Positions 8,396 to 36,399 of a stretch of 37,215 nucleotides of DNA are shown piece by piece. Position 1 is the stretch's first letter; each line of letters begins with the position of its first letter. Location of the stretch: contig MWCD01000038.1 in the NCBI GenBank assembly GCA_002069885.1, positions 1 through 37,215 of the forward strand, written 5' to 3'. The position numbers and the translations under genes were made by a program. The DNA comes from a bacterium ADurb.Bin236 (GTDB taxonomy: Bacteria; UBP15; UBA6099). The notes beneath the pieces are model-generated. The model saw only the letters and a list, made by a program, of their open reading frames with translations. It did not search any database and was not told where the DNA came from.

Positions 8396-8538
8396 CAAAA
8401 GAGGGCGGACATGAAGCAACTCGTAATATTGAGTATTACATCTTTGACGCTATTATTTCAGCCTGTTCCCGCTTTAAATTCCACATGGTCTATCAGTTCC
8501 TCATCTGAGAAAACTGCAAATAATTTTTTCGATGGGGG

Positions 8539-8570: not shown

Positions 8571-8602
8571 ACGCAAAGGCTTACACATATTGGCGGTGAA
8601 TC

Positions 8603-9184: not shown

Positions 9185-9238
9185 GAAGGTTTTGTGCCAC
9201 CGATAACTTACGTCAATTAATCGAAAGAAGGTGTAATT

Positions 9239-9640: not shown

Positions 9641-9661
9641 AGAGGCATATCAGCAATACCG

Positions 9662-9689
9662 TTGATAAATTCCGGATAAATGATATAGT
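9662..9689 (+). promoter_or_regulatory. Candidate promoter for the SPL-type gene
   Basis: TTGATA (9662-9667), a 16-bp spacer and TATAGT (9684-9689) lie 66 bp before the GTG start at 9756. The gap between the two coding regions is otherwise empty. Confidence 0.4.
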
Positions 9690-9755
9690 AAGGAATAATA
9701 CCTGGCATTATGTGCAGTATTTGTAAAAGATGGTTTTAAGGAAGGAACTGAAACC

Positions 9756-16197: not shown

Positions 16198-16959
16198 TCA
16201 TTTACGAAGCATTACAAGGTCTTCATCTAATCCATGACGCATGCATTCCAATCGGGGGGAAACTGACATTAGGAGACCTGCGGACGTTGGTTTAATACGG
16301 AATGGGAATAAGCTCGGATTCTTAATCAGACCATGGATGTTTGCAGAACCGTTGGATTTAGAATGCAAAAATGCCTCTATCAACCATGAAACAAGATGTG
16401 GCTCATCAACATTTATGATATCTCCAGAAGTATAAACACCCTTTGTTTCTGTTTCTGACAACACCTTCCAATCCACGTAAGACCGCATTGCGCGTTGTGC
16501 AGAACGGGAGACTGTCTCCCGTTCACCATATTGTTCACGAAGACGCCGCTGAACTTGAGAAGCAGTAACCGACGGTTGAATCTTTAAGAGTCTTCCAACT
16601 TGTGTTGCCGTTGCTCCCCAAAATGGATAAACTGCCATCAACATTCCCCAGTGGACCGGCGTATGATATACCGCTGGAAGGTTTGAAATAAGTTTCAGTC
16701 CGTCATTGCGAAGAGGTATGAGGTGATTTGGGACAATGAACCATGTTTTTGTTAAAATTGTTATCGTCTTATCCAATGAACCACGAACAATTTGATTATC
16801 GTATTGAAATGAATCTTTGATCTCGTCTTGCAAAGCAACCTTGGATTCATGGACTTGACTGCCCGCTAAAGCGTACTGTGCAGTTTTTTTTAACCAAGAC
16901 AGTCTAATAATACGGTCAATGCCAATTTGAGTTAGTCGAACATCCTTGTCTACTCTCAT
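16198..16959 (-). CDS. brxA: BrxA-like BREX protein
   Basis: The 253-aa protein closes the operon, the position of brxA in type 3 BREX. Its ATG overlaps the pglZ stop by four bases (ATGA), with AGAAGGAG upstream. The central 'HWGMLMAVYPFWGATATQVG' and 'VSRSAQRAMRSYVDWKVL' segments are predicted helical and look like winged-helix DNA-binding surfaces, in line with what is known for BrxA (DUF1819), a small DNA-binding component. Sequence similarity to BrxA as I know it is weak, so the name rests mainly on position and size. No catalytic motif is visible. No strong terminator follows directly; the nearest candidate is at 15807. Confidence 0.6.
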   Translation of the reverse strand: MRVDKDVRLTQIGIDRIIRLSWLKKTAQYALAGSQVHESKVALQDEIKDSFQYDNQIVRGSLDKTITILTKTWFIVPNHLIPLRNDGLKLISNLPAVYHTPVHWGMLMAVYPFWGATATQVGRLLKIQPSVTASQVQRRLREQYGERETVSRSAQRAMRSYVDWKVLSETETKGVYTSGDIINVDEPHLVSWLIEAFLHSKSNGSANIHGLIKNPSLFPFRIKPTSAGLLMSVSPRLECMRHGLDEDLVMLRK

Positions 16960-18953
16960 GAACTCCTTCTTTCGATCTGGATAAGAGGAACGACAAGTTC
17001 CTCAACCGAGATTCCTCCATGACAGACGACACGCTCTCCATCTCTGACAAACGCTTTCCTTCCCGGAGAAATAAGCGCAAAACAGTTATCCGGAAGACCA
17101 ACAGGGAGCCATTCGAGCGCATCAGCGTAATGTTTCTTAACTTCGGCACGAAGAAGAAAGTCTGGATATATGCGAACGCGCTCGCCTCGTAGATCGGCGA
17201 CAGATCCTTCACTTGGTCGTCCATATCCTTCAGCTTCGATATTCCCGTGGTCGGAAGTAAGAAAAACTTGGTAATTGAGCTTTAGAAGCAGATCTAGGAG
17301 AGAGAGCATATAAGACTGCTGAGCCCACTGTCGAACCTGATTGTGCATGCCAGCGGTTCCCATCTCCATTCCATGTATGATTTTATCTATCTTGTCTATG
17401 ACAAGTCCAGCGACTCGCGTTTTAGGGTGAGCAAGCTGTTCCGCAATCTCTGACAGATTGCCGCTGCCTAGCCCCCTTACGTAAGTGATTTCGTTCGGCT
17501 GCAGTCCTTGGTCCGCCCAGAATTGCGACCACAAGGAAGGCTCTTTATCGGTGGTGTTAATGCTATTCGGGAAATATATGGGGGGTTTTCCGGCAAAGAT
17601 GGTTTGCCTTGAGATTGATGTGATGGTTGGTATCCAAGCAAAAACAGCATTTTCCCGAAAACAATAATCGGATTTCTGAGATGCTATTGTTTCACGGATG
17701 ATAATCCACTGGTCAAGAGATAGCCCGTCCACTACTATTAAAGCGATTTTAATTCGCTTGTCTTCGACTATCTTGTGCGATAGAAATCTTGGTAAATGAT
17801 GAAGCATCACCGGTGGGGTAGGAGGCAGATTTACAAGCCCAGCGTATCTTCTGATCAGCCAAGAGCAAAATGAAGAATCTACTTGAGCCTGCAAGTTTTT
17901 TACTTCTTGCGCTATTGTGGCAGAGGCGTCTTCATATACGGTCACTATCAGTTCTGCCCAACCGCGGGCATAGATTAGCCAATCTGTATATTTGGCGTTG
18001 TCTTTCGGAATAGACATACTAAGGTTTGCAATCTGTTTTGATAGGTGCCGGGACCGGTCTTCTACTGAACTTGTTATGACTCCTATGCTCGTCCAAGTTT
18101 TTGAAAGTTTTTCAGATTGTTCATGCGACACTGATTGGAGCATTCCTTCAAGGAACAAATTGTCGATGTAGACTTTTACATCATGGTGATCAAATGGCAA
18201 ATCGGACGGGCCGGGGTATTTGAGACCGTAAGGTTCATGCTTCTCGCACAAACGATGTTCACCTGAATCTGCGAAACGGTCGAGAAACAATGGCCAGCGC
18301 TCTTGAAGAAAAGCAAAGAACGCTTCCCGATCCGAGACTATTGATTCGAGTGGCCACTCCGTGAAAGTATCATTCTGCTGCAGAATCTGAATGAACCGTT
18401 CATCGAGTATTTTGGGTATGCGTTGGCCGCGATAATGACGGCGAAGCAGAACTCGCAGCAGGTCGGAAGGCTGTTTTATGAGTTCGGGCGCAATCTCGAA
18501 TACATGGCGAAGAACAAATTCCTTTGTGGCATTTTCACCAAGCAGCCCTGGTGCATGCCTTGTTTGCGCCGAGAAAAGAGAATCAAGGTCGCTTCGATCC
18601 AAACCAGTCACAACCGGGTAACTGAGATTCGGAAAAATCTCGCCGAGGTTGAAAGAGAGTTTACGTCCTGCATTCAACAAATCGAAAGGCAAGGCACCGA
18701 GAGCGCTGGCATGTGATCGCAATACGACAACCAGATCGGTCTGTTCACCCCGATCCCAGTGGGAACGGAATTTCGATTCATAAGCGTAACGAAAAGCGAC
18801 ATGATCCTCGAAGGGTATTAGCTCAAAACCCTGATTTCGAATACCCTCAAGAATACCCTCCTCAAGGATGAGTCCGTCAGGGTCTGCAACCAATGTAAGC
18901 CGTGCAACATTCGGAGTGAACTCATGCAGGATTATTTCTCTCCAACTATTCAT
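16956..18953 (-). CDS. pglZ: BREX phosphatase-fold protein PglZ
   Basis: This 665-aa protein carries a C-terminal PglZ domain of the alkaline phosphatase superfamily. Metal-site signatures are visible: 'IVVDGLSLDQW' (about 407-416), the nucleophile-region 'PTITSISRQTIFAG' (about 442-455), 'TSDHGN' (566-571) and 'HGGISVEELVVP' (645-656). The N-terminal ~390 residues are helical and of unknown role. PglZ is the universal BREX component and is needed for both defence and methylation. I start it at 18953 instead of the GTG at 18971: GGAGG precedes ATG 18953, and this start overlaps the brxHII stop as ATGAATAG. Metal-binding residues appear intact. Confidence 0.9.
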   Translation of the reverse strand: MNSWREIILHEFTPNVARLTLVADPDGLILEEGILEGIRNQGFELIPFEDHVAFRYAYESKFRSHWDRGEQTDLVVVLRSHASALGALPFDLLNAGRKLSFNLGEIFPNLSYPVVTGLDRSDLDSLFSAQTRHAPGLLGENATKEFVLRHVFEIAPELIKQPSDLLRVLLRRHYRGQRIPKILDERFIQILQQNDTFTEWPLESIVSDREAFFAFLQERWPLFLDRFADSGEHRLCEKHEPYGLKYPGPSDLPFDHHDVKVYIDNLFLEGMLQSVSHEQSEKLSKTWTSIGVITSSVEDRSRHLSKQIANLSMSIPKDNAKYTDWLIYARGWAELIVTVYEDASATIAQEVKNLQAQVDSSFCSWLIRRYAGLVNLPPTPPVMLHHLPRFLSHKIVEDKRIKIALIVVDGLSLDQWIIIRETIASQKSDYCFRENAVFAWIPTITSISRQTIFAGKPPIYFPNSINTTDKEPSLWSQFWADQGLQPNEITYVRGLGSGNLSEIAEQLAHPKTRVAGLVIDKIDKIIHGMEMGTAGMHNQVRQWAQQSYMLSLLDLLLKLNYQVFLTSDHGNIEAEGYGRPSEGSVADLRGERVRIYPDFLLRAEVKKHYADALEWLPVGLPDNCFALISPGRKAFVRDGERVVCHGGISVEELVVPLIQIERRSS

Positions 18954-21786
18954 TGTCGCATCCCTCCACACGGATCAGGATCAAAGGCGATATTTCAGGA
19001 TACACCTGCATCTTGTGTTCGAGCTGTTCCTGAAAAACACGTTCCTCTTGTAAGATAAGCTCCAGCCGGTGATTGCGAACCTGCGGCAGTCCAATCCTCT
19101 CGGCGGCCCTTCGCTTTGCAGCGAATGCGTACTCCGATTTCTCGCGCTCGCGGGAAACATGAGCGCGATGTTCTTGTATGAGTTCCTCATATACAGGTTT
19201 CCCTTGTTCCTCTGCCATGCTCAGTAAGCGTTCGTAAGTGCGTATTGAGGCATCCATATCAAGTAAAGAGCTAATTATTGGATTTGTAGCGAGTAGGTGA
19301 TCCCAGATGTGCCTAGCCGTAGGAGTGAATGCTTTATCATCATCTGAGATAAACAGGGGCAAAATTCTCTTACGTTGCCTCTCCTCCGATATAATCGAAA
19401 TGCTCCATAAAGACCAGAAACCATGTATTTCCTTAGAGATTCCTTCTATCGAAACCACAGGAACAGGTTGTCCTGAAATAAATCGGTTAAGTTGAACAAT
19501 CAGAGACCTAACCTTTGTATCTTCAAGAGTCACATAGCGGCCGGTAGGCGTCATTTCCACTTCTTTTAGCGAAAAAACGACATTGGAATATACCTCGCCG
19601 TCCGGCCATGTGATATTCCATGTCTTCCCTCTTTTTTCCGCATTGCCTCCGTGAGAAGATAGATAGCTTAAAGTCAGTCGCTCAATCCAATGAGGCAACG
19701 GATGGGCCATGAGGCGTTTCGCCTCTTCCGGGTTCAATTCCTCGGTCGTTCCAAGAATTGATGTGTTCGAACGAACATCACGAACTTCATCCTGAATTCG
19801 TGCGACAACGCTGTCCACTGAGTCCTCAATTCTTTCCGGATTGAGAATTGCCTCTACATAAAGCTCATCGAACATTCTACCGGCCTGTGCCGAATCAAGG
19901 ACATCGCTTGTTTTATCAACTCCAAAATCTTCATAAATAACAGCAAGTTTCTGTTCCAAAACCTCGCGAACCCTATGTTCAACGGAATCTTCTATTACGA
20001 AGTTGATGGCTCTTACTACTCGTTTTTGCCCGATGCGGTCTACTCTACCAATCCGTTGCTCAATCCGCATGGGATTCCAAGGGATATCGTAGTTGATGAC
20101 AACATGACAAAACTGCAGGTTCAATCCTTCCCCACCCGCGTCTGTTGAAATCAGAATTCGCGCTTTTTCAGCAAACGATTCCTGAACCCGTTTGCGCTCG
20201 TCCATACCCATTGAACCGTTGAGACACACAACTTCAAAGCCTCGCTCGGAAAGAAACTGGCAAAGCATATCCTGTGTTGGAATAAATTCAGTAAAAATAA
20301 GAACCTTGAGTTCTGAATCGTTTTCCTCTGCCTGCAGTCGATATATCCAGTCGAGCAGAGCTTCGGCTTTCGCGTCGTTTCCTGTCCGCTCCCACCGAGA
20401 TGTCGCTTCCAGAAGCAATTTTACTTCTGAACGTTCATTCTTGAGTGCTTTTAGTTGAGTGCGAAGCAGAGTATCAATCTGTTCCTGCCCATCCATATCC
20501 GACCATTCTTCATCTGATAAACCGGGGAATAGTGTCAACTGCTCCGGTGGAGATTGTAGCGCATCAAGTCTTTTTTCAAGTGTCGTCTTGATAGCTTGTG
20601 TGCTGGACACAACAAGGCGCTGCATCAATATCATTAAGAAGCCGATATAACTCCGTTTCTCTCTAATTGCTTGGTTGTATCCTTCGCGGACATACTCTGT
20701 GACAGCCTCATAAATGATCTGCTGGTCGCGGTGTTTCTCATTCCATGATACTGGTATAAGTTGAGTGCGTCGCGGTTTAAACAATGGCCCGCCGTCTGCA
20801 TTTATTGCACGTCGCTTCTCAGTGCGAATCACATAAGGCCGTACCCGTTCGCGGGTAATACTACTTACATCCGGAAATGCTTTTTCATCGATCAGAGACA
20901 TCAAACGATGGAAGGCATCCGTTTTGCCTTGATGAGGTGTAGCTGTCAAAAGCAGAATGTAAGGCGCCGCCTCGGACAATCCCTGACCGAGTTTGAATCG
21001 GGCAACCTGATCTGTGCTGCCGCCCAGTCGATGCGCCTCGTCAACGATGACAAGGTCCCAGTTCGCGGATATCAAATCCTCGAAACGCCCCCGATTGTAT
21101 TCATCTAACTGTTCAGTTGTCCAACCACGACGCTTGTCCAACGGTTTAAATGAGTCCATTGGCACAACTACTTGTGAGAACATCTGCCAGGCATTTTCAC
21201 GACTTCGCATTGGCTTGTGATTGTTTGAATTTTCATCGCCCGAGATTGAAGCCGATAAAACTCGATTCAATGATTTAAGGTCATCCGGAAGCACGAGGTG
21301 AAAAGTTTCGCCAAAATGAAAGCTCATTTCGCTCACCCACTGAGTAACCAGTCCCTTGGGGGCAATAACCAAAATGCGTTTGACCACACCTCGAAGTTTG
21401 AGTTCCTTCAGTATCAGCCCAGCTTCGATGGTTTTTCCAAGACCAACCTCGTCCGCCAAAAGATATCGGACACGATCACCGTTGATAGCACGGGACAAAG
21501 CTTTGATCTGATGTGGTAATGGGATGACTGAGGATTCTATAGGCGCGAGCAGCACATCATGAACCATTGCATCGGCGATTCGTGCGGCGGTGGCAACGTA
21601 TGCAATGTGATCCGGCGAATTGCTACCGGCACTCTCAAGAGGCTTGAGCCGGGAAGCTGGGACACGCACCACAGAGTTATGACCGGGCAACCAGACCCGA
21701 CAGGTCGTCTCTCCCCAGAGTGTCTGGGTTTCTATGACCTGACAATTCTGCCCGAAGTCCAAGTTAAAGAACCAATTGCCATCCAT
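18946..21786 (-). CDS. brxHII: SNF2-family helicase BrxHII
   Basis: The 946-aa SWI2/SNF2 (RapA-like) ATPase has motif I DEVGLGKT at about 112-119 ('LLADEVGLGKTIEAG'), DEAH at 249-252 ('LVIVDEAHRLGG'), motif III 'LLLTATPHQG', and the C-terminal lobe with 'ISTDAGGEGLNLQ' and motif VI 'RIEQRIGRVDRIGQ' near residue 600. The first ~50 residues form a small beta domain ('WLPGHNSVVRVPASRLKPLE') as in RapA-type proteins. The C-terminal part is charged and helical. BrxHII is the helicase specific to type 3 BREX and is thought to translocate on or remodel DNA-protein complexes. It starts six bases after the 348-aa gene, with a poor ribosome-binding site (GGAA), and ends overlapping pglZ. Confidence 0.88.
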   Translation of the reverse strand: MDGNWFFNLDFGQNCQVIETQTLWGETTCRVWLPGHNSVVRVPASRLKPLESAGSNSPDHIAYVATAARIADAMVHDVLLAPIESSVIPLPHQIKALSRAINGDRVRYLLADEVGLGKTIEAGLILKELKLRGVVKRILVIAPKGLVTQWVSEMSFHFGETFHLVLPDDLKSLNRVLSASISGDENSNNHKPMRSRENAWQMFSQVVVPMDSFKPLDKRRGWTTEQLDEYNRGRFEDLISANWDLVIVDEAHRLGGSTDQVARFKLGQGLSEAAPYILLLTATPHQGKTDAFHRLMSLIDEKAFPDVSSITRERVRPYVIRTEKRRAINADGGPLFKPRRTQLIPVSWNEKHRDQQIIYEAVTEYVREGYNQAIREKRSYIGFLMILMQRLVVSSTQAIKTTLEKRLDALQSPPEQLTLFPGLSDEEWSDMDGQEQIDTLLRTQLKALKNERSEVKLLLEATSRWERTGNDAKAEALLDWIYRLQAEENDSELKVLIFTEFIPTQDMLCQFLSERGFEVVCLNGSMGMDERKRVQESFAEKARILISTDAGGEGLNLQFCHVVINYDIPWNPMRIEQRIGRVDRIGQKRVVRAINFVIEDSVEHRVREVLEQKLAVIYEDFGVDKTSDVLDSAQAGRMFDELYVEAILNPERIEDSVDSVVARIQDEVRDVRSNTSILGTTEELNPEEAKRLMAHPLPHWIERLTLSYLSSHGGNAEKRGKTWNITWPDGEVYSNVVFSLKEVEMTPTGRYVTLEDTKVRSLIVQLNRFISGQPVPVVSIEGISKEIHGFWSLWSISIISEERQRKRILPLFISDDDKAFTPTARHIWDHLLATNPIISSLLDMDASIRTYERLLSMAEEQGKPVYEELIQEHRAHVSREREKSEYAFAAKRRAAERIGLPQVRNHRLELILQEERVFQEQLEHKMQVYPEISPLILIRVEGCDNE

Positions 21787-21792
21787 TGTCGC

Positions 21793-22839
21793 TCATTCCG
21801 GTATCGTCATATCTTTGTGGACTACCACAGATCCTAATTCAATGTTTCCATCTTCACATTGCCAATAATGAAGATGATATTCATAATCAATATCTCTTCT
21901 CCATGCATTATCCAGTCCTCTGGTTCGTTGGGGATCATTGGCTCCTTGACCAGTACGTAGCCGATGAGTTGCCCTCATGTTAAGTCCTTCAAGAGTATCG
22001 ATAATAGATCGCAAAACTTTAGCCGCAAAACTGTCCGCTTGATCCACACAACATTCTCTAAGCGTTTCTCTAAAACTATGTCCGATTATAAGACCGCGTG
22101 TATCGTCCCAGTTCGGTTCTTGAGATCTCGCGATTCTTGACTTGTATAAAGCTACACGTATGGCTGCTTCTAATCCGACATCATCAACCGCACTTAACAA
22201 AATTGCTGACGCATCTAAGCATTGTATTAGTCCATGAAAATCATCACAAACAAGTACATCACCCTCAAAATAATTAGGTGGTGACGGTATTTCGGTCAAA
22301 TCGTCTCTCTCGTGTTGGATATCGTGAATAAGAGCTGTAACATTCACAATCTGTCGAGGTGCGCTACGAATAATTAGGGAGTGGTCCAGAATGGGTTCTG
22401 TACAGTGTTTGCGAAGAATCGCAATCAGTATTATGCATCTTGCCAATTCAGTCTGAAATCCCATACTTGCGCAAAGCTGTAGCAGATCAGGATTCGTAGT
22501 CACATCTTCAAGGCGTGTTAATACCTCTTGCATTCGATAATATGTTTCAAATGATGGCGTCATCTGAAGGAGAGTGTTTACCACTCTGACAACACCATTA
22601 ACAGCAAACTCTTCTATCCCATGGGCAGTGAAAAGCTCCTCTAATTGATCATGCAACGGGAAAAGACCTTCTTTAATAAGAGTTTCCGAGGAACGCTCAC
22701 TCATGTAAATCGATACCCAAGGTTCATTAAGCAGTCTACTCCAATCCGATATCGTATCAACATATCGATGCGCTTCTTCGATTTCACAATCCACAGGAGG
22801 AACTGCCAAAACCCCAGCATCAATGGAAACACTTGGCAT
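21793..22839 (-). CDS. Unrecognised 348-aa partner of the SMC/OLD-like ATPase
   Basis: I cannot assign a characterised family. It is mostly helical, and the C-terminal ~50 residues look different and catalytic. A 'TGQGANDPQRTR' segment leads to 'WRRDIDYEYHLHYW' (313-326) and 'IELGSVVVHKD' (333-343). Together they offer D316, D318, E320, H322, H324 and H341 in a compact alpha/beta segment, as expected for a small nuclease or toxin core. This is a reading of residues, not a match. Its ATG overlaps the ATPase stop as TAATG, with GGGAGA upstream, so the two are translationally coupled and probably bind each other. An effector role alongside the ATPase is inference. Confidence 0.6.
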   Translation of the reverse strand: MPSVSIDAGVLAVPPVDCEIEEAHRYVDTISDWSRLLNEPWVSIYMSERSSETLIKEGLFPLHDQLEELFTAHGIEEFAVNGVVRVVNTLLQMTPSFETYYRMQEVLTRLEDVTTNPDLLQLCASMGFQTELARCIILIAILRKHCTEPILDHSLIIRSAPRQIVNVTALIHDIQHERDDLTEIPSPPNYFEGDVLVCDDFHGLIQCLDASAILLSAVDDVGLEAAIRVALYKSRIARSQEPNWDDTRGLIIGHSFRETLRECCVDQADSFAAKVLRSIIDTLEGLNMRATHRLRTGQGANDPQRTRGLDNAWRRDIDYEYHLHYWQCEDGNIELGSVVVHKDMTIPE

Positions 22840-24734
22840 TATTGTTTCTCCCGTTTGTTTTTTCTCTTTTTGGCGGCCGCAATTAAAATTTCTTCTTCTT
22901 CCCGCTGACTTTGATCAAAAAATCCTTTGGGCCAATTTTTAACGGCTCCATAATCATTTACCTCAACTTCTTGGAAAGTTGATGTCGCGCCTTCTTTCTC
23001 TACAAAATATACTTTTAAATGAGAATTCACTCTATTGTTTTCATCTTCTGCTGCCACTCGATTTCTTAGCCTATTGACTAAATACTCGCTATGCGTTTCC
23101 ACAAGGCATTGTTTACCCATAAGAACAATTGATAAAAAGAAATCGGCAAGTCGAGTTTGAACCTTAGGATGTAAGTGTAGCTCAGGTTGCTCGAACACAA
23201 GAACTGTATCTCGATCTGCAAGCAATGACATCACCAGAATTGGCAACACCTGGCTAACACCAACTCCGACGTGGGTTAAATCATGAACAGGGCCATCTTC
23301 TGACAAAGTAATTTTAAGCTCATGTCCTAGTTTTCCTTTGTCAAAGCTTTTTGCAGATTCTGCGACACCCAGATACCTTAGCCATTCAGTAACAGCAGAT
23401 TCGAAGTATCTTATTGTAGGCGTAAAATTGAAAGGAGTCTTTTCAAACGCAGATGGGGGTATGAAGCGAACGCGTTTTTCCTTATGAAGATTGAGAACAG
23501 CCGCGGTCATTTCACCACGAAGACCTACATCTGTCGGGTCGGCATAGGCTGCCAATGGGTATAATGGCTTCGGTTCATCGCGCAATGGCCCAAGATATTT
23601 GACTGAATTTGAAAACATATATTCGAGATATGCCGAAGCGTTCATCAGGTCCATCGGAGGACGGAAAGGTCTTAATTCGAATTCAGATTCGTTGTCATTC
23701 CTTTGGGCGCGCAAAGCATGCATTATAGTTTGGGGAAGGTCAGAACAATCCAATAATGCTCTTCTGAATTCACGTCTCATATCAGGAGGGAGTCTTCTAA
23801 CACGATCAGCCCATTCTCTGACGGGAATGCCAGATTCAATATCAAAGAGTGTTTGTTGCCTGTCAAAAATAAGCCTGAATTTATCGTCTATCTTCGATTG
23901 CAGATGTTGAACAACCATTTCTGGTATTAAAATATCTCTTCCATTGAAAACGGGACGTCTGTAATATCGTGGTGATTCTTCAACAAGAATCATATAGATT
24001 TGTCTTGCAAGTTCCTCGATGGTATTAACTCTTATTGAAATGCGATCAGGAAGAAAATGCTTTAGCACGCATCCGACAGGCTCTGCGGTAGCAAAATCTT
24101 CATTGAGTTCTATCAATGAATTATCATCCAAAACAATATCGTATTCGAGGCTGTCGATGGCTATCTTGTTATCAGGCTCTTTTATCTGCAAACTGTTCAT
24201 TTTTGAGCTGCCGGATTGGCTTCTTGTGATAGTAATTTCAAAACGCTTGTCAGTGTTGTCGTCTCCTCTGACGAGTAAAGACATGTTGAAAAGGAACAAT
24301 TGTGGTTGAAGTTGAAACAAATCACGATCTGGGCTTCCCGGATTTGTGTCAAATGAAAGTTTGCATGATACTTCCTTTATTGATTCAATACGTCTTCCAT
24401 ATACAGTGGCAGGACCTGGAATTCGTAAACCATCTATAATAGCAATTTGCCCATCTTCGGTAGGATGGCATTCCCAACCAATACTAATAATATCCGTTTC
24501 ACTTCTAAACGATTTCAAGTCGTCAAATTGACCAAGTCTTGTGAGAGTGCCGTTCAGCACTACAGAACGGCTGCTGATCTTATGAGAGAGTGTTTGGGAT
24601 ATAAGAAGAATAGACTGAAGAAACGTGCTTTTTCCGCTGCTGTTTGGTCCTGCAAATATCGTTAATGGTGCGAGTGGAAGCGTTTCCTCTTTTGATATTG
24701 ATTTAAAGTTCGCAACTGTCCATTTTGTTATCAT
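22839..24734 (-). CDS. SMC/OLD-like AAA ATPase with DUF3696-like tail
   Basis: This 631-aa ATPase has Walker A GPNSSGKST at 29-37, directly after 'NFKSISKEETLPLAPLTIFA'. Its signature-like 'VGVGVSQVLPILV' is followed by Walker B 'VLVFEQPELHLHP' (about 511-523) and the switch region 'CLVETHSEYLVNRLR' (about 543-557). The last ~40 residues, 'DYGAVKNWPKGFFDQ' plus a Lys/Glu-rich tail, match what I know of DUF3696 C-termini. Proteins of this build are ABC/SMC-like ATPases without a long coiled coil. They recur in phage-defence operons, where they couple DNA sensing to an effector. No TOPRIM domain is visible, unlike true OLD nucleases. AAGGAGA gives a strong start. The 34-bp gap before it is the widest in the locus. 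It is coupled to the 348-aa gene behind it. Confidence 0.85.
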   Translation of the reverse strand: MITKWTVANFKSISKEETLPLAPLTIFAGPNSSGKSTFLQSILLISQTLSHKISSRSVVLNGTLTRLGQFDDLKSFRSETDIISIGWECHPTEDGQIAIIDGLRIPGPATVYGRRIESIKEVSCKLSFDTNPGSPDRDLFQLQPQLFLFNMSLLVRGDDNTDKRFEITITRSQSGSSKMNSLQIKEPDNKIAIDSLEYDIVLDDNSLIELNEDFATAEPVGCVLKHFLPDRISIRVNTIEELARQIYMILVEESPRYYRRPVFNGRDILIPEMVVQHLQSKIDDKFRLIFDRQQTLFDIESGIPVREWADRVRRLPPDMRREFRRALLDCSDLPQTIMHALRAQRNDNESEFELRPFRPPMDLMNASAYLEYMFSNSVKYLGPLRDEPKPLYPLAAYADPTDVGLRGEMTAAVLNLHKEKRVRFIPPSAFEKTPFNFTPTIRYFESAVTEWLRYLGVAESAKSFDKGKLGHELKITLSEDGPVHDLTHVGVGVSQVLPILVMSLLADRDTVLVFEQPELHLHPKVQTRLADFFLSIVLMGKQCLVETHSEYLVNRLRNRVAAEDENNRVNSHLKVYFVEKEGATSTFQEVEVNDYGAVKNWPKGFFDQSQREEEEILIAAAKKRKNKREKQ

Positions 24735-24768
24735 TCGTCTTCTCCTTTTCTGGAGGCAGTAAATTGCA

Positions 24769-26265
24769 TCATGGCAAAACAGGCAATGAATATGCTGCTA
24801 ATTTTGGAAGATGCTGGGAGTAACGTGTCTTCAATACGTCTAATTGACCAATGAAATTACGCCATGTTTCGCAATCTTCTCTATTCCACTCAATAACTGT
24901 GACTTTGCTTGCATACTTAATACAGATATCTTCAAATACCGTGGGGAGAAGAGTTGGGCTTGTTTTCAACAAAGCGTCTGCTGCTTCGAACAATGTGAGC
25001 ATGTCATCTGGACGATCCACTGTGAGATCAATCAAAATATCATCTGTCATATTGATAAAGGAAACCAGAAGAGCGACGCTCCACTTACCAATATTTTGAA
25101 GAACTTCTTGAACATCCGCATCTAACCAATCAGATGAAACTATCTCTTTTATCAATTCATCGATCTTTGGACAGCCATCGAGACATAAACTAGAAGAAAA
25201 TAAATCTTTACAAGCACGCAAAGCGATTGTCTTTTTGGCGGAGTCACGAAGTGTGTCTAAAAGAATAACAAGAATTTCTTCTCTGCGCTTATCCAAAATC
25301 ATGCTATGTTGTGCAATCAATCCGGAAAATATGTTTATCTTTTCGCCGAGTAATTCTTTGTCACTTTGTGAAAGACCATCGATAGAGCATAAATTTGCCC
25401 ATGAATTAAACACAATGCGGTCCGGTTTGCCTACTTTTAATGAATCCAAAAGATGAGATTTTGCAGTTGTACGAGTTGGTTCATCCCAAAATCTATTTAC
25501 ACGACCATCTAATCCTACGAATATTGAAAATAAATCTCTGTCCTCAGCTTCGTAAGCAGGCAGTTTGCGTGCTATTTTATCAGCAACTGAATCCTCAGCG
25601 GCATTTAGTAACTCAAAAATAAAATGAATGGCATTATCTTTCCATATCTGAGTCTTGTTATTCTTATAAGCATCAATGCTTACTGCGGCAAATTGAGGCC
25701 ATAGACTTTTAGGCACTTTGGAGAAATAATAGCTGCACGTTTCAGATATTCGATTTGGGTCAGAAATGAAGTGCTTGTCAGACAGTTTAGCGTTCATTAA
25801 TGTCTTTATGAACGTCATTCCACGATACCCTTCCCGGCATAACGTGGTCTGTGAGCAAATATAAAGAATGTTTCTTACTGTTTCAGCAGAAGGGTTGACT
25901 CCGGTTGGATGGGCACACTTTGATCTAATGTCTCGAGCAAACCGAAGACACTTCTCTTCATAATCATCAAACAACTCACACTTTTTCGCCTGGGTAATTA
26001 AAAGTTCCTCGAAAGACGCCATTCCCTTTTGAGGCGTCAATAAGGACACAGCAACCTGTGCGGTCCCGTCCCCATCTGAACTCAATTCTCCAATTCGCCG
26101 CTCAAGGCAATCTGCGGTTACGGACCATGCTAAAATAACTGCGGCGCGATGAGAACCTATGTAATAACATCGAATAGCTTCATTGAACATTTCACGATCA
26201 TCTTGATCCAATATTTGGTCGCAGACATGATCAAGATCAATGAATTTCTTTTCTTCTCCGTTCAT
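24769..26265 (-). CDS. HEPN-domain protein, candidate RNase effector
   Basis: The 498-aa protein has an N-terminal HEPN-like domain (about residues 20-140). 'FNEAIRCYYIGSHRAAVILA' and 'WSVTADCLERRI' form the first helices, and 'RDIRSKCAHPTG' carries R114-x4-H119, the Rx4-6H signature of HEPN ribonucleases (the AHP context resembles DUF4145-type HEPN). The remaining ~350 residues look like an alpha-solenoid of short helices with no recognised motif, suited to binding a partner. Many HEPN proteins in defence loci cleave RNA when activated. Its ATG overlaps the pglXI stop (TAATG), with GGAGGTG upstream, so it is expressed with the BREX methyltransferase. Local base composition is AT-rich: 20 of 60 bases in 25141-25200 are G or C, against 34 of 60 in 28381-28440 of pglXI. 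That hints at a separate origin. Confidence 0.7.
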   Translation of the reverse strand: MNGEEKKFIDLDHVCDQILDQDDREMFNEAIRCYYIGSHRAAVILAWSVTADCLERRIGELSSDGDGTAQVAVSLLTPQKGMASFEELLITQAKKCELFDDYEEKCLRFARDIRSKCAHPTGVNPSAETVRNILYICSQTTLCREGYRGMTFIKTLMNAKLSDKHFISDPNRISETCSYYFSKVPKSLWPQFAAVSIDAYKNNKTQIWKDNAIHFIFELLNAAEDSVADKIARKLPAYEAEDRDLFSIFVGLDGRVNRFWDEPTRTTAKSHLLDSLKVGKPDRIVFNSWANLCSIDGLSQSDKELLGEKINIFSGLIAQHSMILDKRREEILVILLDTLRDSAKKTIALRACKDLFSSSLCLDGCPKIDELIKEIVSSDWLDADVQEVLQNIGKWSVALLVSFINMTDDILIDLTVDRPDDMLTLFEAADALLKTSPTLLPTVFEDICIKYASKVTVIEWNREDCETWRNFIGQLDVLKTRYSQHLPKLAAYSLPVLP

Positions 26266-29108
26266 TATTCCGCACCTCCCAAACGCGTGATAGCCTGGTC
26301 ATACCACATGAGAAGTTTTGGGTCTTCCTGAAGAACAGATTCTGGTATTTTACGAGCTACTTCGATTATCGTCCGGTATCCATCGTTCGATTTTTCCTGC
26401 CATGCTTTCTTAAACCCGGCCCGTACAGCCTCCAAGCGGAACACTTTCAAACGCTTTTGACTCGATTGTTTATATTCATCGAACTCTCGTAAAAGTGTAC
26501 GTTCCCGCAGTTTTTCGAGATCTCCAGATTTATTAGGATCGGGCACATAATAACGGTCTTTCGCTCGAGCAATGAGAACTGTTGATCGTGTGCTGAAACG
26601 ACCGTTTTCTTCGATTGCTCGACCAGACTCCAACTCGTCACGAATAATGATTCGTAGTTCTTCACTCTGTTTCATCCATGAGACCAATTGTGTCGGGATT
26701 GCCCCCTTGCCGTCGTATCGCAGAAAATTCTGTTCGAGCAATTCGTCAAGCTCAAGGAGTTTTTCTGTTTTCTGCCACCCCCCCATTTCCTGCATGAACT
26801 GAGGTTTCAACTCGCCCGCTGTCTGTGGCTTCCTTGTAAGCTGTTGTCGCAGCCATTGTATTGCTGTAGATTCATCACTTACAAAAAGTTGGAGTTGGAG
26901 CACATCCTTTACGGTCATTCGCTTTTTGTCGTATTCCGCCGCCTGCTCGGGCAAGAAATACATGCCGTCGCGCTCGGGGAACCGTTGCAGACCCGTGTAG
27001 AACTCTGCGGCAGACAGTGGGACTGTTACGCCGCGCTGGACGTGGAAGGCAACCATACGATCAAAGAGAAGATAATTCTGTCGTTCGGCAATGGTTTCCG
27101 CTTTATTCTCTCTTGGAACAAAGACAGGCAGTTGTTTCAGGTGCGTTCGAATAAAATCCCAAACACCTTCTTCTGTCCCAGCTTCAAGCTTGAAACGTTC
27201 TTCGAGGCCACCATTGGGTTTGTATGCCGAAATAATCAAATCCTGTTTGACGGCGCCGCCGCTGGTGACTTGCTTGAAAGTGCCTTGTTGTTTGTCAAGG
27301 GTTCTGACATCGGCAATGACGAACCCAGCATTTTGCAAAGCCACCTGAATGGCATTCCAGACACTGTTCTTGGAGTTGTGAAACTCAACTGTCATCCATC
27401 TGCCGGATTTAAGCACACGATAGTATTCTTTGAAACAAGCTGTCATCAGTGCTTGGTATTCTGGAAGCCCCTTATTTTGATGTTTCGATTCAATCGCCTC
27501 TTCATTGCGACTTGTTAAGACTTGTAACCACTCTTCCCACAGCACATTGAGTTCTGCATACGCCAAATTTCCTCCAAATGGGGGGTCAGTAAAGACATAG
27601 TCACAGCTCGCATCAGACATGCCTATGTGTGTTGTGGAATTACAACCTATTGTATTTCTTGTCCGAAGTTGTTTATAAGCGGCAACGAAACGCCGCATTT
27701 TGTTATAATATGCTACAAATATATTCGACTCCGATATCTGTGAGCCGACATACAGGGTGCCGCTAAGTGGATTGTAAGGAAAAGACACTCCTGGCCTATA
27801 ACGGTTCAATCGGGACATGTTAACAAGTTGGCTTGTGAAAAGCAGCATCATTTGTGGTGAGTGTTTGAATCTCTCCCTCAAAGCTGCCAGTATCCAGATG
27901 TTGCGTCGAGTGTAAAACTGATGCACATGAGTAATCCCAATGATGTCGTTTCGTCGAGTTTCGCCGCCTTCAAAGAGTCTGTTGGTTGGGAACCAGTAAG
28001 GGATATCGCTCTCTGAAATTTTCTCAATTACCGTCAAGTCTAACTTGTCTGGCTCTTTCTCGTAATTAACGCGGCCCACATGGTAACTTATTAATACTGG
28101 AATCTGTTTCGCCTGTTGTATGCTTATGTGTAACGCAGAGTCATAGAATGTTACGTAGGCTCTGTCCATGCGACGCTTTGTAAGCGATGCATTGCAATGC
28201 GTGCATGGGAACTCGTCGCTGACTTTGCCCGCCTCCTTGTCCACTGCGGCTTCCCAGAATACAACCTCACGTGTGCATTCCGGGCAAATGAAGACATCTG
28301 ACCATACCGTGTAATTGATACGCCCCTTAGCCTTGCCGTCAGTGTGAAGCGTCTCGTACATCCAGCCGCATTCCGCCTCGACCTCCTTCAGAATGCATTT
28401 GGCCTCGTGCTCGAAGGCCGCAACATCTACCGGCGTGTTGAAGTTGTAGGCGATGAAAGTGGCGGCTGGCGAAAGGTCATTTAGTATGGCATGGCGTGCG
28501 CCGAGTTTGGAAAAGGACTCCCAGACGGTCTTGCCGTTGTTATCCGTCTCCTGCTGAAAGATCGTGCCATCCTTATCAACATTGTATCCCATGGATTCGA
28601 CCGTCATCTTGTCGCCGCAGAGCTGCGCAGCAACTCCCGTCATGCCTGTCCCACAGAATCCATCAAACACGACATCGCCCGGCTCGGTGTAATGCAGGAT
28701 GTACCGCATAATCGCTTTATGAGGCACCTTTGTGTGGTAGGAATGAGCGTTATAGATCGGGTCGTTCTTTCCTTCGCTTACATCCGCTGCGAACGGTTCG
28801 CGCTTGTAAGCATCGTTCGGGTCATAAGGCTTGCCATAAAATCGAATAAAATCCTCGGTGAAAGGATTCGGGCAGGCAGTGTAGTACGGCGGGTCGGAGA
28901 GCGCCAGGATGTCCTCGTCCGAGCCGATGGGGAAGCCTTCGATTTTGCGGAATTCCGGGTCCTCAAGTTTTTCTTGCAAAATGCCAAGGAAATGCGCCCG
29001 TCTCGCGTCGTCGTCAGGGAATGTCAATCCTAAACAATCGACCGGTCCTTGTTGCTTGGATTCGGACTGCATATCCAAGGTTCCTTGTTCGTGATTATCA
29101 TTTGCCAT
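26265..29108 (-). CDS. pglXI: BREX type 3 DNA adenine methyltransferase
   Basis: The 947-aa methyltransferase has 'GDVVFDGFCGTGMTGVAAQ' as the SAM-binding motif (about 144-162) and a DPPF catalytic motif at 508-511 ('YVFTDPPFGGNLAYAEL'). A second 'SDPPYYTACPNPF' lies near the N-terminus (71-83), as in other DUF1156-type and PglX-type enzymes. Between the two main motifs is a zinc-ribbon-like insert, CPEC (275-278) and CTHC (302-305). The long C-terminal part probably recognises the target. In BREX, the methylation mark distinguishes self DNA. The start at 29108 is preferred over the TTG at 29210: AGGAG lies eight bases upstream, and the previous gene's stop is four bases before it. No frameshift is visible, so the gene does not appear phase-locked off. 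Confidence 0.88.
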   Translation of the reverse strand: MANDNHEQGTLDMQSESKQQGPVDCLGLTFPDDDARRAHFLGILQEKLEDPEFRKIEGFPIGSDEDILALSDPPYYTACPNPFTEDFIRFYGKPYDPNDAYKREPFAADVSEGKNDPIYNAHSYHTKVPHKAIMRYILHYTEPGDVVFDGFCGTGMTGVAAQLCGDKMTVESMGYNVDKDGTIFQQETDNNGKTVWESFSKLGARHAILNDLSPAATFIAYNFNTPVDVAAFEHEAKCILKEVEAECGWMYETLHTDGKAKGRINYTVWSDVFICPECTREVVFWEAAVDKEAGKVSDEFPCTHCNASLTKRRMDRAYVTFYDSALHISIQQAKQIPVLISYHVGRVNYEKEPDKLDLTVIEKISESDIPYWFPTNRLFEGGETRRNDIIGITHVHQFYTRRNIWILAALRERFKHSPQMMLLFTSQLVNMSRLNRYRPGVSFPYNPLSGTLYVGSQISESNIFVAYYNKMRRFVAAYKQLRTRNTIGCNSTTHIGMSDASCDYVFTDPPFGGNLAYAELNVLWEEWLQVLTSRNEEAIESKHQNKGLPEYQALMTACFKEYYRVLKSGRWMTVEFHNSKNSVWNAIQVALQNAGFVIADVRTLDKQQGTFKQVTSGGAVKQDLIISAYKPNGGLEERFKLEAGTEEGVWDFIRTHLKQLPVFVPRENKAETIAERQNYLLFDRMVAFHVQRGVTVPLSAAEFYTGLQRFPERDGMYFLPEQAAEYDKKRMTVKDVLQLQLFVSDESTAIQWLRQQLTRKPQTAGELKPQFMQEMGGWQKTEKLLELDELLEQNFLRYDGKGAIPTQLVSWMKQSEELRIIIRDELESGRAIEENGRFSTRSTVLIARAKDRYYVPDPNKSGDLEKLRERTLLREFDEYKQSSQKRLKVFRLEAVRAGFKKAWQEKSNDGYRTIIEVARKIPESVLQEDPKLLMWYDQAITRLGGAE

Positions 29109-29112
29109 CAGA

Positions 29113-29679
29113 CTACTCCTGTTCGAGTTGTTCTCCACGTTCAATCTGTTTAATATAGCACTCCAAGTTGCTGGACACCTTCTCGAAAACTTGGGGCAGG
29201 TAACAAGCAAGTTCCCGAAATGTCACTACATCTGAAGCTGGACCACCATGGTAGTATCTTAGATGCTGTAGAATGTCGTTTCGCTCTTCCATCTCAAGCT
29301 CACGCATTGGATCACGTTCGCGGTAGTCATTCATATTCGATAGATGGATGAAAGCACAACCAAATCGATAAACAGATTGTGTCCATCCGTGGAGTTGTCC
29401 CGCAAGCTGGACCATTTCACGGTCTGTGATTCGACCCTTGTGGTGCATCTTCCAGACCCGACCGTTGACGGCGTCTTGGATCAGGGAATCTCGATGTGCG
29501 GAATCATTGAGCGAGAGAAGGAAGATGACTCGGATCATAGAGTCCAGTTCTTGCCGCAGTATGCCGACTATTTGACCATAAAGTTCTGCTCCATGCAAAA
29601 GTGCCAGCGCATCCCGATTCTCGCGAGAGCGCTCTCGGACTTGGCGGCAGAATGTATGCACAACTTCACGTTCATCCAT
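29113..29679 (-). CDS. HEPN-like 188-aa protein between brxC and pglXI
   Basis: I do not recognise a named family. The protein is entirely helical, and 'GAELYGQIVGILRQELDSMI' followed by 'YRFGCAFIHLSN' reads as a HEPN-type four-helix bundle. R105-x6-H112 fits the upper limit of the Rx4-6H motif; the residue after the Arg is Phe rather than the more usual polar residue, so catalysis is doubtful. The gene starts six bases after the brxC stop (GGAG upstream) and ends four bases before pglXI. The two junctions carry the same GGAGTAGTCT word, in which the stop codon and the next gene's ribosome-binding site overlap. It could be an RNase, an inactive regulator of the 498-aa HEPN protein, or a structural BREX subunit. 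It is not among the six standard type 3 genes. Confidence 0.6.
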   Translation of the reverse strand: MDEREVVHTFCRQVRERSRENRDALALLHGAELYGQIVGILRQELDSMIRVIFLLSLNDSAHRDSLIQDAVNGRVWKMHHKGRITDREMVQLAGQLHGWTQSVYRFGCAFIHLSNMNDYRERDPMRELEMEERNDILQHLRYYHGGPASDVVTFRELACYLPQVFEKVSSNLECYIKQIERGEQLEQE

Positions 29680-29685: not shown

Positions 29686-32600
29686 CTACTCCAACACAAT
29701 TCGAACTTTTCCGGGTTCTTTACCCTTGATTAACTGATCCAAATATTCATCGAACCTCTTCTTCATTTCCACCGGGGTGGCCGGTGAGCCGCCCGCGAGC
29801 AGCGCAGAGCGCATTTCATCCACCTTTAGCGTGACTTTCGTGAGTCCTGACAATACCTCTTGCAGCGCATGGATAAATTCCTGATCGAGATCGTCCGGCA
29901 AGGCTTTCTTTGTTATGAAGCCATCCACGAGCTTGCGAGACGCAGATTTTAGGAGTGCCAGATTGGCTTTGGTTGTCGGGTCATCAAGATTGGTGAGCAG
30001 AGACTTGGTCCAGTTCTCCATCAGATTATCAAGTTCTGCATCCTGTGCATCGAGAAGCATGCTTGCCGGTGCCGTTGTTGGTTCCGCTGCGGGTTTGTAG
30101 CCACAATGCGGACACACGGGAAACGCATCGAGTTCCTGCTCCGTCAGCGCGAAACAACTTCTCAGTCCCGCAAGACGATTCTGAAACTCAGCCAGATGCT
30201 GACGAGGCATGAGATCGATTGTGGAGAGCTTCTGGAGCCGCTTGAGACGGTCATCATTCATGATCTGGGTTTTGCGTTTGTCTTCGTTAACACCCAGACG
30301 TGATTTTGTATGCATTACAAGATATGTCTGGATGTAATCTTTCTTCAATTCAGTGAGGCTACGTTGCGCCTTTTGGCGGAATGCGGGAGCACTACGTTTC
30401 TTTGCATCTCCGATTTGTTCAAGAACTTCCGTTCGTGCTTTCCTCATTTTTTCGATCCATTCGTGCTCGGAGGGGAATACCGCCTCGGCTGTTGAAAGAT
30501 AAGAGGCTGTTGAACCGAGGTCGGCTACAAATTCTTGTAATGCTTCAATTTCTTCGATTGCTTTCAACCCATCGCTATGGCTACTTATCTCTTTCACTTC
30601 GTAACGAAAGTTTTTTAACTTGCCGGGGGAATTAAAGGGCTGAAGTGATTCGAGAAATGTCTTCGTAGCATCAAGACGCGTGCGGAGATTCTGGACATCG
30701 TCCTCGGTAAGCAAGGTTTTACCCCAGAAAATAATACCAGTTTGCAGATATTGCTGAACGAACACAAGCTTTTGAACCATTCCTGCTATTTTATTTAGCA
30801 ATTCCTGAACCGGTTCCTCTTTGCTTTGGGTAACTAGTTGTGCCATGCCAGGAGTGAGTCCCAGCAACTCGTATAGCGCCTTTAAAGCGGGAAGGTTCCA
30901 ATCCTTCGGTCTTTCAATATGCTTGAATTGGGTAAGTTCTTCGATTCCTGTTGTAGCAAGTTGTTGAAGACCGGTCGCATCAAATTTGTTGCCCGGAATT
31001 GCCAGTACGACTTCACCAGCGTATATGAGCGCGGATAGAACTACAATCGCCCAATCAGGCTCAAGCCGCAGCTTCTGAGGCAAAAGGAATTCGACGCCGA
31101 GAACTTCCTGAATCAGTTCAGATCGGTTAACGACTTGTCCGTGGCCTTTCTTCTTTGCGATTTCGAGAATGACCTTGGCGTACTTTGACCGGTATGGATC
31201 AATTCTATCTCCATCTAATAGTTCCAGAGCATCCAAAACCGCCGTGGCTTGTTTCGTTCGATTTTGCCCGGCAATTGCTCTTAATGCATCTTGTGCCGCT
31301 TGGCTCCGATTGGCTCCGGTGATAAGTATCGAGAAGAAAGGGTATTCCGGCGCCTGATCTTGGAAGTGTGTGCTCAGGCAAATACCCGCTATGGTATTTA
31401 CAAGATCACGGAAGTTGATGCGCTCATGGGATGCAATGCCGGATAACTCCCGGATAGATTTTCCCTTTGCCCATTCCGTGAGAGACTTCGTTCGCCCTTG
31501 ATAAGTTACATCAAAAGCCGTGGCCATGTTTTTCTGAAGCCATTGCACTAAATCCCGCAGGAAGCCCGATGCTTTAGATTCGTAGGTGGACTTTGCGTGA
31601 CCGGAGGAAGTGGACGCCATGTCGAGCGCCGCTGCATAATTGCGAAGAGATGTGCGGAAAGCGTCATCTGGGTTCTTAAGAAGAACAATCACATCTCTTG
31701 CGTCCATTTCATACTTTTCTGTCGGCGGTTCCAATGGCTGGATGAAGTAAATATAAAAATCGCGTGGGGGTATCGCAGTGGACCGCTCATTCGGCGCACC
31801 AAAGAAAAGGTACCCTTTGCGGGCGGCTTTTCGTTCGATCCATTCGATCTCGTGCTGCCAGATTTTGTAGCCGGTAACGTAGGTCTGGTCTGTGCATTCC
31901 ATGACCCGTTTTAATGCTTCGTAGTAATATCGGTCGAGTTGAGATGAATCAAGGCACTCTGCTTTTTTTTCAATCAAAGCGTCAAAATCATCGGTCTTCT
32001 TGAGGTCGAGATAATATTGCCGGTTGTCCGTGTTTGACGAAATGAACTGCCCGCTCACCGTTCTGTGGATTTCCTTTAGAACTGTTTCCACTTGTGTGAG
32101 CAAATCATCAGCAGGAACTCCGCCTAAGTCTTCAATGCCGTCTTGGTAAAGACATAGTCCATCACGTAATTCTTCTGGTGTAGCGCCAATGGATGAATAA
32201 ATATCACCAGTGGTAAGTCTGTGAATCGAGAGAGCATGGATAATCTGAACAGCCATGTCTTTGTATGCAGGACGTGTAAATGCTTGCTTGATGCGTGATT
32301 CAAGAACTTGGCTGCAGTCAATAACCGCTCTGATGTCCGGCACAGCGCGAAATGACGGATTCTCGCGAAGTGAAGACCAGTAGCTGTCGTATGCGATTAC
32401 TCCAGGTCGATCCTGCGGAATCTCCTTGTCGAGAACTTTTTTCATTGCGACCGAGAGTGTCCTTAGAACTTCACGTTTTTCCACTGCTGAAACTCGTTCA
32501 AAAGTGTCGATGTAGTCAGGATGCACAGGAAAAAGCCGGACGAACTCGTCCATTTTTTCATTCATGTTTCCATAGAACTTTGCAAAAGGAGTTAAATATT

Positions 32601-33414
32601 CGCGGATTTTGACCTGCTGTTCTCCTGTTTTCTTCAAGAGTCTTTCGGCCACCACAAACTTGACGTCTTTGCGAGCGATCAAAACCTGTTCGAAGCGATC
32701 TTTCACTCGACGGATACTATCTGATACGAAGGAGAACCGAGGACTATCGAAAATTGCCTCTTGAACACCCGCTACGAACCGGAAATGCAAGTCTTTACAG
32801 ACTTCACCAATCTCGCGGAGAAAATTCAGATCAAGGATAAGTTCCAAGTCTTTCCGTGTTCGTAAGTAGTCGAGCAACTCGTCCACAACCAGAAGCAGAC
32901 CATGATGCGGATATTTCTGGTGAAATGCGGTCATCATGTCTTCGAATGCCCGTTTGCTATTAGGCACTTTGTCCGCGGGCGGAAAGGAGTATGACACACC
33001 CATTGAAGAAAGATGTTCTTCAAGTTCGGCCACAAGGATGTCGCGCAAAGACATCATGGTGGCGCCGATTTCAGTTCGTATTACCTTGAACCGTCCAGCA
33101 ATTTTCACGGCTGCATCAGCCACATCGCGGTTGTTGAGCTGCGTGGCGAGTTCATCATTCTCCGCGAGTATGGATATTACCGACATGAGGTGAGATTTAC
33201 CTGTTCCGTAATTGCCAACGACGAGCAGCCCTTTGTTGTCGGCTGGCTGCTCAAATTGAAGCTGGGGAATAACGAGTCCGGTAAGCTTTTCCGCCATCTC
33301 GTTCGATATCACATAAGTGCTGATTAGCTGGCGGGCAGCGGTCATTTCGTCGGCATCTCGAAGCTGAACAACGGATTCGATTGGTTCGAATTTGATAAGG
33401 TCTCCGTATTTCAT
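29686..33414 (-). CDS. brxC: BREX ATPase BrxC (PglY-like, DUF6079-type)
   Basis: The 1,242-aa P-loop ATPase has Walker A GNYGTGKS at 67-74 and Walker B '[12 protein letters not shown]' at about 173-184. Long helical and coiled-coil-rich regions follow, with a single CPHC pair near residue 1,100 that may be half of a zinc knuckle. BrxC is the large ATPase common to all BREX types; size, motif positions and placement between brxF and pglXI all fit type 3. It probably oligomerises and assembles the other components on DNA. GGGAGA precedes the ATG. A 33-bp gap separates it from brxF. All nucleotide-binding residues are intact. Confidence 0.9.
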
Positions 33415-33447: not shown

Positions 33448-33924
33448 TTATTCAATTACATCCGATCCCGCCACCAGAAAGTCCTGTATTGCATAACGCT
33501 TGAATTCAGAGTGTCCGGGTTCTGCGTAAATGATGTGTTCTCCTTCATTCAAGCCATTCCAAGTCACAACGACTGTTTTGTTTCTTGAAAGACCTTGCAG
33601 AAGCCGTAGCGGGTCCTGTTTGAGTGATACATCAAACAGAATTTCAATGTTGTCCAGAAGGATTGTGTCGCCCTTCGATGAATTCACGATATCAGATAAA
33701 ATTCGAGGGAGTTGAAGAGCGCGTTGTCGTTCGGTCAAATCGAGCATTCTCTTTGAAAGCTCAAGATTGACATTGACCATCGGTGCGCCAGTTCGTTTTT
33801 GTGCATCTTGGATGGCGCTGGTTTTCCCTGATCCTGCCGGGCCAACTACTACCAAAAGGCGGTTGTACAGCCCGGTTGTTTGGTCGATTTTTCTCACAAT
33901 TTGATCTGCAAGCGGCTCTGCCAT
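33448..33924 (-). CDS. brxF: BREX P-loop protein BrxF
   Basis: The 158-aa ATPase has Walker A GPAGSGKT at 28-35 and Walker B-like 'DTILLDNIEILF' at about 86-97. It is a single small P-loop domain, which is what BrxF is in type 3 BREX, and it sits directly ahead of brxC as expected. Its ATG overlaps the stop codon of the HTH gene (TAATG), and AGGAGA lies upstream, so translation is coupled to the regulator. BrxF probably works with BrxC as a regulatory or DNA-dependent ATPase; its exact role is not known. Confidence 0.85.
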   Translation of the reverse strand: MAEPLADQIVRKIDQTTGLYNRLLVVVGPAGSGKTSAIQDAQKRTGAPMVNVNLELSKRMLDLTERQRALQLPRILSDIVNSSKGDTILLDNIEILFDVSLKQDPLRLLQGLSRNKTVVVTWNGLNEGEHIIYAEPGHSEFKRYAIQDFLVAGSDVIE

Positions 33925-34130
33925 TAATGACTTTCTCCTGTGACAGGTTTTTCTTCCCGTGTTTCTTCAAGCCATCGGTCAATCGCAAATTTCCGAAAAC
34001 GCCAGTGACGACCTATTTTTTGAGAAGGAATTTTGCCTTCACGAACGATTTTGTAGATCGTTGACTTCGGGATCTTCAGGTATGTGGCTAACTCATCGAT
34101 GTTGAAGACCTTGTCTGTTGCCTCTTCCAT
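33924..34130 (-). CDS. Excisionase/MerR-type small HTH protein leading the BREX operon
   Basis: The 68-aa protein is a typical excisionase-family DNA-binding domain: 'FNIDELATYLKIPKSTIYKI' then 'VREGKIPSQKIGRHWRFRK' and 'IDRWLEE', i.e. helix-turn-helix, wing and closing helix. The longer frame begins at a TTG (34172) lying inside the putative promoter. ATG 34130, with GAGGGG upstream, is the better start. It overlaps brxF by one base (TAATG). It could repress or activate the BREX operon, or act as a recombination directionality factor for the serine recombinase next door. The sequence does not decide between these roles. Confidence 0.8.
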   Translation of the reverse strand: MEEATDKVFNIDELATYLKIPKSTIYKIVREGKIPSQKIGRHWRFRKFAIDRWLEETREEKPVTGESH

Positions 34131-34149
34131 TGGAAACCCCTCTCGCTCG

Positions 34150-34185
34150 ATTATACACGAACCATGTGACAAAACCGAATGACAA
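34150..34185 (-). promoter_or_regulatory. Promoter and repeated TTGTCA boxes before the BREX operon
   Basis: On the minus strand a perfect TATAAT (34155-34150) lies 20 bp before ATG 34130. The word TTGTCA occurs twice upstream (34185-34180 and 34172-34167), 13 bp apart, about one helical turn. Neither copy is at the ideal 17-bp spacing, so they may be regulator-binding sites and not -35 boxes. The leader would be very short. Confidence 0.5.
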
Positions 34186-36383: not shown

Positions 36384-36399
36384 TTTCAGCGCCTCCGCT

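Follow-up and report, generated by a model that had tools for sequence, protein, structure and literature searches.

A predicted HEPN RNase gene and a DUF3696 ATPase gene pair in the pglXI/brxHII interval of a type 3 BREX operon

The stretch of DNA analysed here (37,215 nt, hereafter the window) carries a complete type 3 BREX operon on its minus strand, in which three further genes, here called genes 1, 2 and 3 in their order along that strand, separate the core genes pglXI and brxHII. Our preferred reading, to which we assign a probability of roughly 0.6, is that these genes form two independent accessory anti-phage modules, stacked in the pglXI/brxHII slot, expressed with BREX and providing second-line, growth-arresting responses. 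Gene 1, a predicted HEPN RNase, would be one module, while genes 2 and 3, an ATPase and its partner, would be the other. An apparent single composite cassette is thus resolved into two modules and an uncatalogued conserved domain is named as candidate effector. The embedding of accessory defences in BREX/Hma operons is itself already known: Rakesh & Krishnan (2026, PMC12839542) count HEPN genes and OLD-ABC dyads among the backup effectors that lie within BREX core loci, on the model of PARIS and its sensing of Ocr, and a 2024 preprint ('guilt by embedding'), from which the HEC and PDC names come and which is cited in PMC12988326, treats defences that sit within other defence systems. What is new is the separation of a solo HEPN gene from the dyad, the uncatalogued partner with its tail domain, and a scar in a related locus, L003.

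All six BREX core genes match PADLOC profiles, with E-values from 9e-71 to 0, and the gene order along the minus strand is an excisionase-type HTH gene, brxF, brxC, a 188-aa gene, pglXI, genes 1-3, brxHII, pglZ and brxA (Table 1). The first-pass annotation had pointed to three extra genes in the pglXI-brxHII interval (21793-26265), and their coordinates, strand, lengths and neighbours were confirmed by the open reading frames and by PADLOC. The genes are co-directional and tightly packed: pglXI and gene 1 overlap as TAATG (context AATAATGAAC), genes 1 and 2 are separated by 34 bp, genes 2 and 3 overlap as TAATG, and the TGA stop of gene 3 is followed by six bases, GCGACA, and then by the ATG of brxHII. 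The first and the last of these junctions had been described before and are found in the sequence as described. Genes 1-3 are probably co-transcribed with the BREX operon. Neither promoter-like nor terminator-like sites were more frequent in the operon than in shuffled sequence. GC3 amounts to 0.31-0.34 in genes 1-3, to 0.43-0.52 in brxF, brxC, pglXI, brxHII and pglZ, and to 0.35 in brxA; since the values of genes 1-3 lie below those of most BREX core genes, these genes probably arrived late. The 188-aa gene, of no known family (29113-29679, minus strand), fills the brxC/pglXI junction and overlaps the listed start of pglXI, of which the true start is probably further downstream because the profile match starts at residue 44.

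Table 1. Positions in the window of the BREX core genes, of genes 1-3 and of their motifs
Feature	Position	Strand	Basis
brxF	33448..33924	-	PADLOC, 9e-71
brxC	29686..33414	-	PADLOC BrxC and Pfam DUF6079, E 0
pglXI (BrxXI methyltransferase)	26265..29210	-	PADLOC PglXI, E 0
Gene 1, 498 aa; HEPN, PD-T7-3/'Dandelion' family, predicted single-gene RNase effector	24769..26265	-	PADLOC, profile, AF2 model
HEPN motif R114-x4-H119 (RSKCAH) of gene 1	25909..25926	-	Invariant in 8 homologues
Gene 2, 631 aa; DUF3696 ABC/OLD-type ATPase (NsnB/HEC-03B-like)	22839..24734	-	Pfam and PADLOC
Walker A GPNSSGKS of gene 2, residues 29-36	24627..24650	-	Sequence
Walker B LVFEQPELHLHP of gene 2, residues 512-523	23166..23201	-	Sequence
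Gene 3, 348 aa; partner of ATPase, predicted effector, no known family	21793..22839	-	No family match; relative in L003
Conserved C-terminal domain of gene 3, residues 252-348 (~97 aa)	21796..22086	-	Alignment of 5 divergent proteins
brxHII helicase	18946..21786	-	PADLOC, E 0
pglZ	16956..18971	-	PADLOC, 6e-304
brxA	16198..16959	-	PADLOC, 3e-86

Profile comparisons and a structural model place gene 1 in the PD-T7-3/'Dandelion' family and give it a HEPN fold. Its product matches the PADLOC profile of PD-T7-3 (E-value 1.4e-9) over residues 10-175 only, and it has no NCBIfam match and no Pfam domain at E-values up to 0.1. Seven homologues encoded on plasmids of Bacteroidota, Pseudomonadota and Actinomycetota were aligned with it, and nine columns of this eight-sequence alignment are invariant, among them R114, H119 and P120, so that the HEPN motif of the first-pass annotation is present and kept throughout. 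The family profile built from the eight sequences matches the solved structure 'Dandelion' (PDB 9wxf) with an E-value of 6e-38 over profile positions 5-288, as well as the 'Dandelion-hepn' fragment (9wx2); with the single sequence of gene 1 the match to 9wxf reaches an E-value of 0.16 only. The C-terminal half is thus covered unequally, the PADLOC match stopping at residue 175 and the eight-sequence profile extending to position 288. An AF2 model of residues 1-199 has a mean pLDDT of 67, and about 80 across the bundle. Compared with known structures, it matches HEPN structures with a best Z of 11.7, and the top 25 or so rows are nearly all HEPN, unrelated rows appearing at about Z 6.5 and lower; Foldseek alone found nothing for this model at E < 0.001. 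The product is predicted to be an RNase.

PD-T7-3 (Vassallo 2022, PMC9519451) and Dandelion share with gene 1 the HEPN N-terminus, the conserved R-x4-H-P and the status of a stand-alone gene, but gene 1 differs from them in that it sits inside a BREX operon and is only 17-23% identical to the aligned homologues. Each of the seven plasmid homologues inspected is a gene on its own; one adjoins a Gabija-like pair and another Wadjet. Scans of viral contigs with genes 1, 2 and 3 and with the tail domain yielded no relatives, and one relative of gene 1 emerged from a pattern scan. A search of 392 planctomycete genomes that had no positive control found no gene 1 relatives.

Gene 2 encodes an ATPase of the ABC/OLD type. 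Pfam matches are AAA_15 (7e-26), AAA_21 (3e-18) and DUF3696 (2e-10), and PADLOC matches are NsnB (8.5e-70), HEC-03B (2.4e-54), PDC-M55A (3e-45) and, weaker, AriA (3e-28). Of the full set of nucleotide motifs that had been attributed to it, Walker A, Walker B and THS (residue 547) are present, and the stretch VGVGVSQ at residue 489 possibly represents the signature motif. Both Menshen and HEC-03 have a partner gene after their DUF3696 ATPase, NsnC in the former and a PIN-like protein in the latter.

Menshen (NsnABC) resembles our pair in its ATPase, NsnB, and in the gene that directly follows it in the effector position; in the three NsnA-B-C loci that were recovered (L047, L049 and L051) NsnC likewise comes directly after NsnB. 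It differs in that no DUF262 gene, NsnA, lies upstream here, its place being taken by the HEPN gene. The product of gene 3 matches no NsnC profile at E-values up to 10, while three plasmid NsnC proteins match with 2e-74 to 2e-86, and membership in Menshen was therefore rejected. One could still regard genes 2 and 3 as a divergent Menshen that has lost NsnA and in which gene 3 is a strongly diverged NsnC, given the close match of the ATPase to NsnB and the fact that NsnC is highly polymorphic. The NsnC tail motif R-[IV]-H also resembles, by eye, the LHYW of gene 3, a likeness beyond which the kinship of the two tails found nothing in its favour. Profile comparison of gene 3 with three NsnC proteins gave probabilities below 4, which together with the failed profile match and the missing NsnA makes this origin unlikely.

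HEC-03 (Hma-embedded candidate 03, PADLOC-DB), named for its embedding in a methyltransferase-helicase defence operon, likewise combines a DUF3696 ATPase with one partner. HEC-03-type pairs were recovered in L025, L046 and L052, and their HEC-03A-like partners start like PIN nucleases. Gene 3 does not match HEC-03A at E-values up to 10, as opposed to the partners in L025 and L052 (3e-23 and 3e-42), and HEC-03 was rejected as well. The N-terminus of gene 3, VSIDAGVLAVP, appears PIN-like by eye, but a PIN fold was unsupported when it was compared with three HEC-03A proteins by hhalign (probability 0.3, with very small profiles). In PARIS, where AriA senses Ocr, an OLD/ABC ATPase and an effector act as backup beside BREX (PMC12839542); gene 3 differs in having no Toprim/AriB (DUF4435) match, and gene 2 is of the DUF3696 type and nearer to NsnB than to AriA. 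The partners that PMC12839542 lists (Toprim, HNH, PD-(D/E)XK and PIN) do not fit gene 3, and DUF3696 does not occur in its main text.

Gene 3 itself has no match among the families of Pfam, PADLOC and NCBIfam, the best Pfam score being E 0.28. Its C-terminus had been singled out as conspicuous and is indeed highly conserved: the residues G, F, R-x-R, D, A, R, LH-x-W, E, SV, D and I-x-E are common to all five divergent proteins aligned, and the tail is almost identical in a relative from another phylum. The same domain terminates Planctomycetota proteins of 350-690 aa, some of which carry an S1 RNA-binding domain (S1/coiled-coil proteins; the S1 domain was shown for the 689-aa protein of L017), and it is also found at the end of actinobacterial plasmid proteins. 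In L015, L017 and L019, all Planctomycetota, 689-aa proteins with this tail come after a conserved 203-aa gene, near DUF2924-like and phage-like genes. Matches of the tail domain to solved structures were at chance level, and tblastn with gene 3 on plasmids and phages found none. AF2 modelling of gene 3 from two sequences gave no usable fold (pLDDT 33), so that it is its position and its conservation that make gene 3 a putative effector of a two-gene module.

The near identity of this tail across phyla also bears on the idea that genes 1-3 are passengers, or are decaying, and no longer serve in defence. Their low GC3 suggests a recent arrival, as would befit passengers, yet each of them has its full length, its motifs intact and its junctions tight, and we consider such a state most improbable.

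Two other loci, one with BREX and one away from it, show genes 2 and 3 to be a separate module. In L003, a planctomycete (Sedimentisphaerales bacterium), a gene 2 relative (49% identity) that begins on the pglXI stop is followed by a gene 3 relative (54%), the single one in the genome collection, between pglXI and brxHII, and the HEPN gene is absent. A conjugative plasmid of Acetobacter encodes a gene 2 relative, 32% identical over its full length, followed by a 335-aa gene, with no BREX nearby; the tail of this partner was compared with the gene 3 tail family and gave an hhalign probability of 82 and a pairwise E-value of 1e-5. Since the inspected gene 1 homologues stand alone or near other systems, and the pair in L003 lacks the HEPN gene, we read the interval as two modules in series.

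The composite locus proposed in the first-pass annotation thus stands in so far as HEPN and ABC/OLD-type ATPase genes lie within the BREX operon, but not as one cassette. A single system, in which gene 2 would be the sensor and the HEPN protein and gene 3 effectors or regulators in one complex, would agree with three contiguous, co-directional, tightly packed genes of common low GC3. It is nevertheless quite unlikely, as both recurrences of the pair lack gene 1, no second locus bearing all three genes was found, gene 1 homologues occur singly, and genes 1 and 2, being 34 bp apart, are less tightly joined than genes 2 and 3, which overlap.

L003 also shows how such a pair may be exchanged. Between positions 3570 and 10389 this locus has two pglXI genes that are 55% identical to each other, and gene 3 is followed by stray pieces that match brxHII at its start and pglXI at its end. 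It looks like a segment of 'pglXI-gene 2-gene 3-brxHII start' from another type 3 BREX has recombined into the resident one. A 245-aa unknown gene stands before brxHII in this locus. We tentatively suggest, as a possibility well short of even odds, that the gene 3 tail is an effector domain not yet catalogued, perhaps an RNase, and that the ABC-ATPase dyad which uses it passes from one BREX operon to another through recombination in the flanking core genes; the RNase is proposed because the domain also ends proteins with an RNA-binding S1 domain, and the mode of movement because the L003 scar suggests such exchange.

The junction that holds genes 1-3 is a variable one. In a small survey of 11 type 3 BREX loci, mostly from Planctomycetota and alphaproteobacterial plasmids, pglXI runs directly into brxHII, as had been taken for standard, in four (L034, L038, L039 and L040), whereas the other seven have cargo, which differs between loci. 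Apart from genes 1-3 in the window and the relatives of genes 2 and 3 in L003, this cargo consists of a protein kinase and two genes (L032), PD-(D/E)XK_3 and Schlafen AlbA_2 (L033), the ABC-ATPase dyad HEC-02 (L041 and also L035, which begins within the ATPase and has its pglXI outside view) and a DNA methyltransferase-like gene (L037, a fragmentary assembly). The brxC/pglXI junction is a second slot: L037 and L041 have a pair of ATPase and DUF4276 genes there, L039 and L040 have AlbA_2-type genes, and L032 has a PIN-like gene. L041, a contig of a viral collection, has type 3 BREX with different ABC-ATPase dyads at both junctions (3841-5684 and 8446-9986), namely AAA_21 with DUF4276, and HEC-02. 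We therefore point out the pglXI/brxHII junction as a recurrent cargo slot of type 3 BREX; if it is general, new defence genes could be found directly by cataloguing what it holds across type 3 BREX loci.

The empty junctions also speak to a role of genes 1-3 as subunits that modify BREX itself, for instance in phage recognition or regulation. The common operon and the translational coupling to pglXI are what one would expect of such subunits, but four type 3 BREX loci do without them and the pair of genes 2 and 3 occurs without BREX, and we hold this role to be very unlikely.

Back-up, possibly abortive, defence is in our view the likeliest function of the embedded genes, and for the two-module reading a mechanism can be sketched. 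From their relatives we infer that the ATPase senses and that gene 3 and the HEPN protein act on the cell or the phage. In the first module the HEPN RNase would be controlled by its C-terminal part, which probably senses infection or restrains the RNase. In the second, what the DUF3696 ATPase detects is probably a product of the phage or an inhibitor that the phage directs against BREX; once triggered, the ATPase would release or activate gene 3, in which the toxic enzyme is likely to be the conserved domain at the C-terminus. The two modules would act when BREX fails, as a growth-arresting second line; triggers and abortive outcome are part of this proposal.

The small HTH gene 5' of brxF (33924-34172, minus strand) scores 65 bits with MAD1 of the MADS defence system, just under the cut-off of 80 bits. 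Just upstream of BREX lie a CcrB/XisF-like serine recombinase and a DUF2924 gene (34800-36873, minus strand); this stretch has a GC content of 0.58-0.60, against 0.46-0.48 for most BREX genes, and is possibly the edge of a mobile element. A type III restriction-modification pair with a GC content near 0.36 (10800-15381, minus strand) comes after the BREX operon, with which it forms a defence island. On the plus strand, and ending short of the defence genes, lies the gene of a 2617-aa protein with YadA head repeats (36-7889), which is probably a surface protein of the trimeric-autotransporter-like kind.
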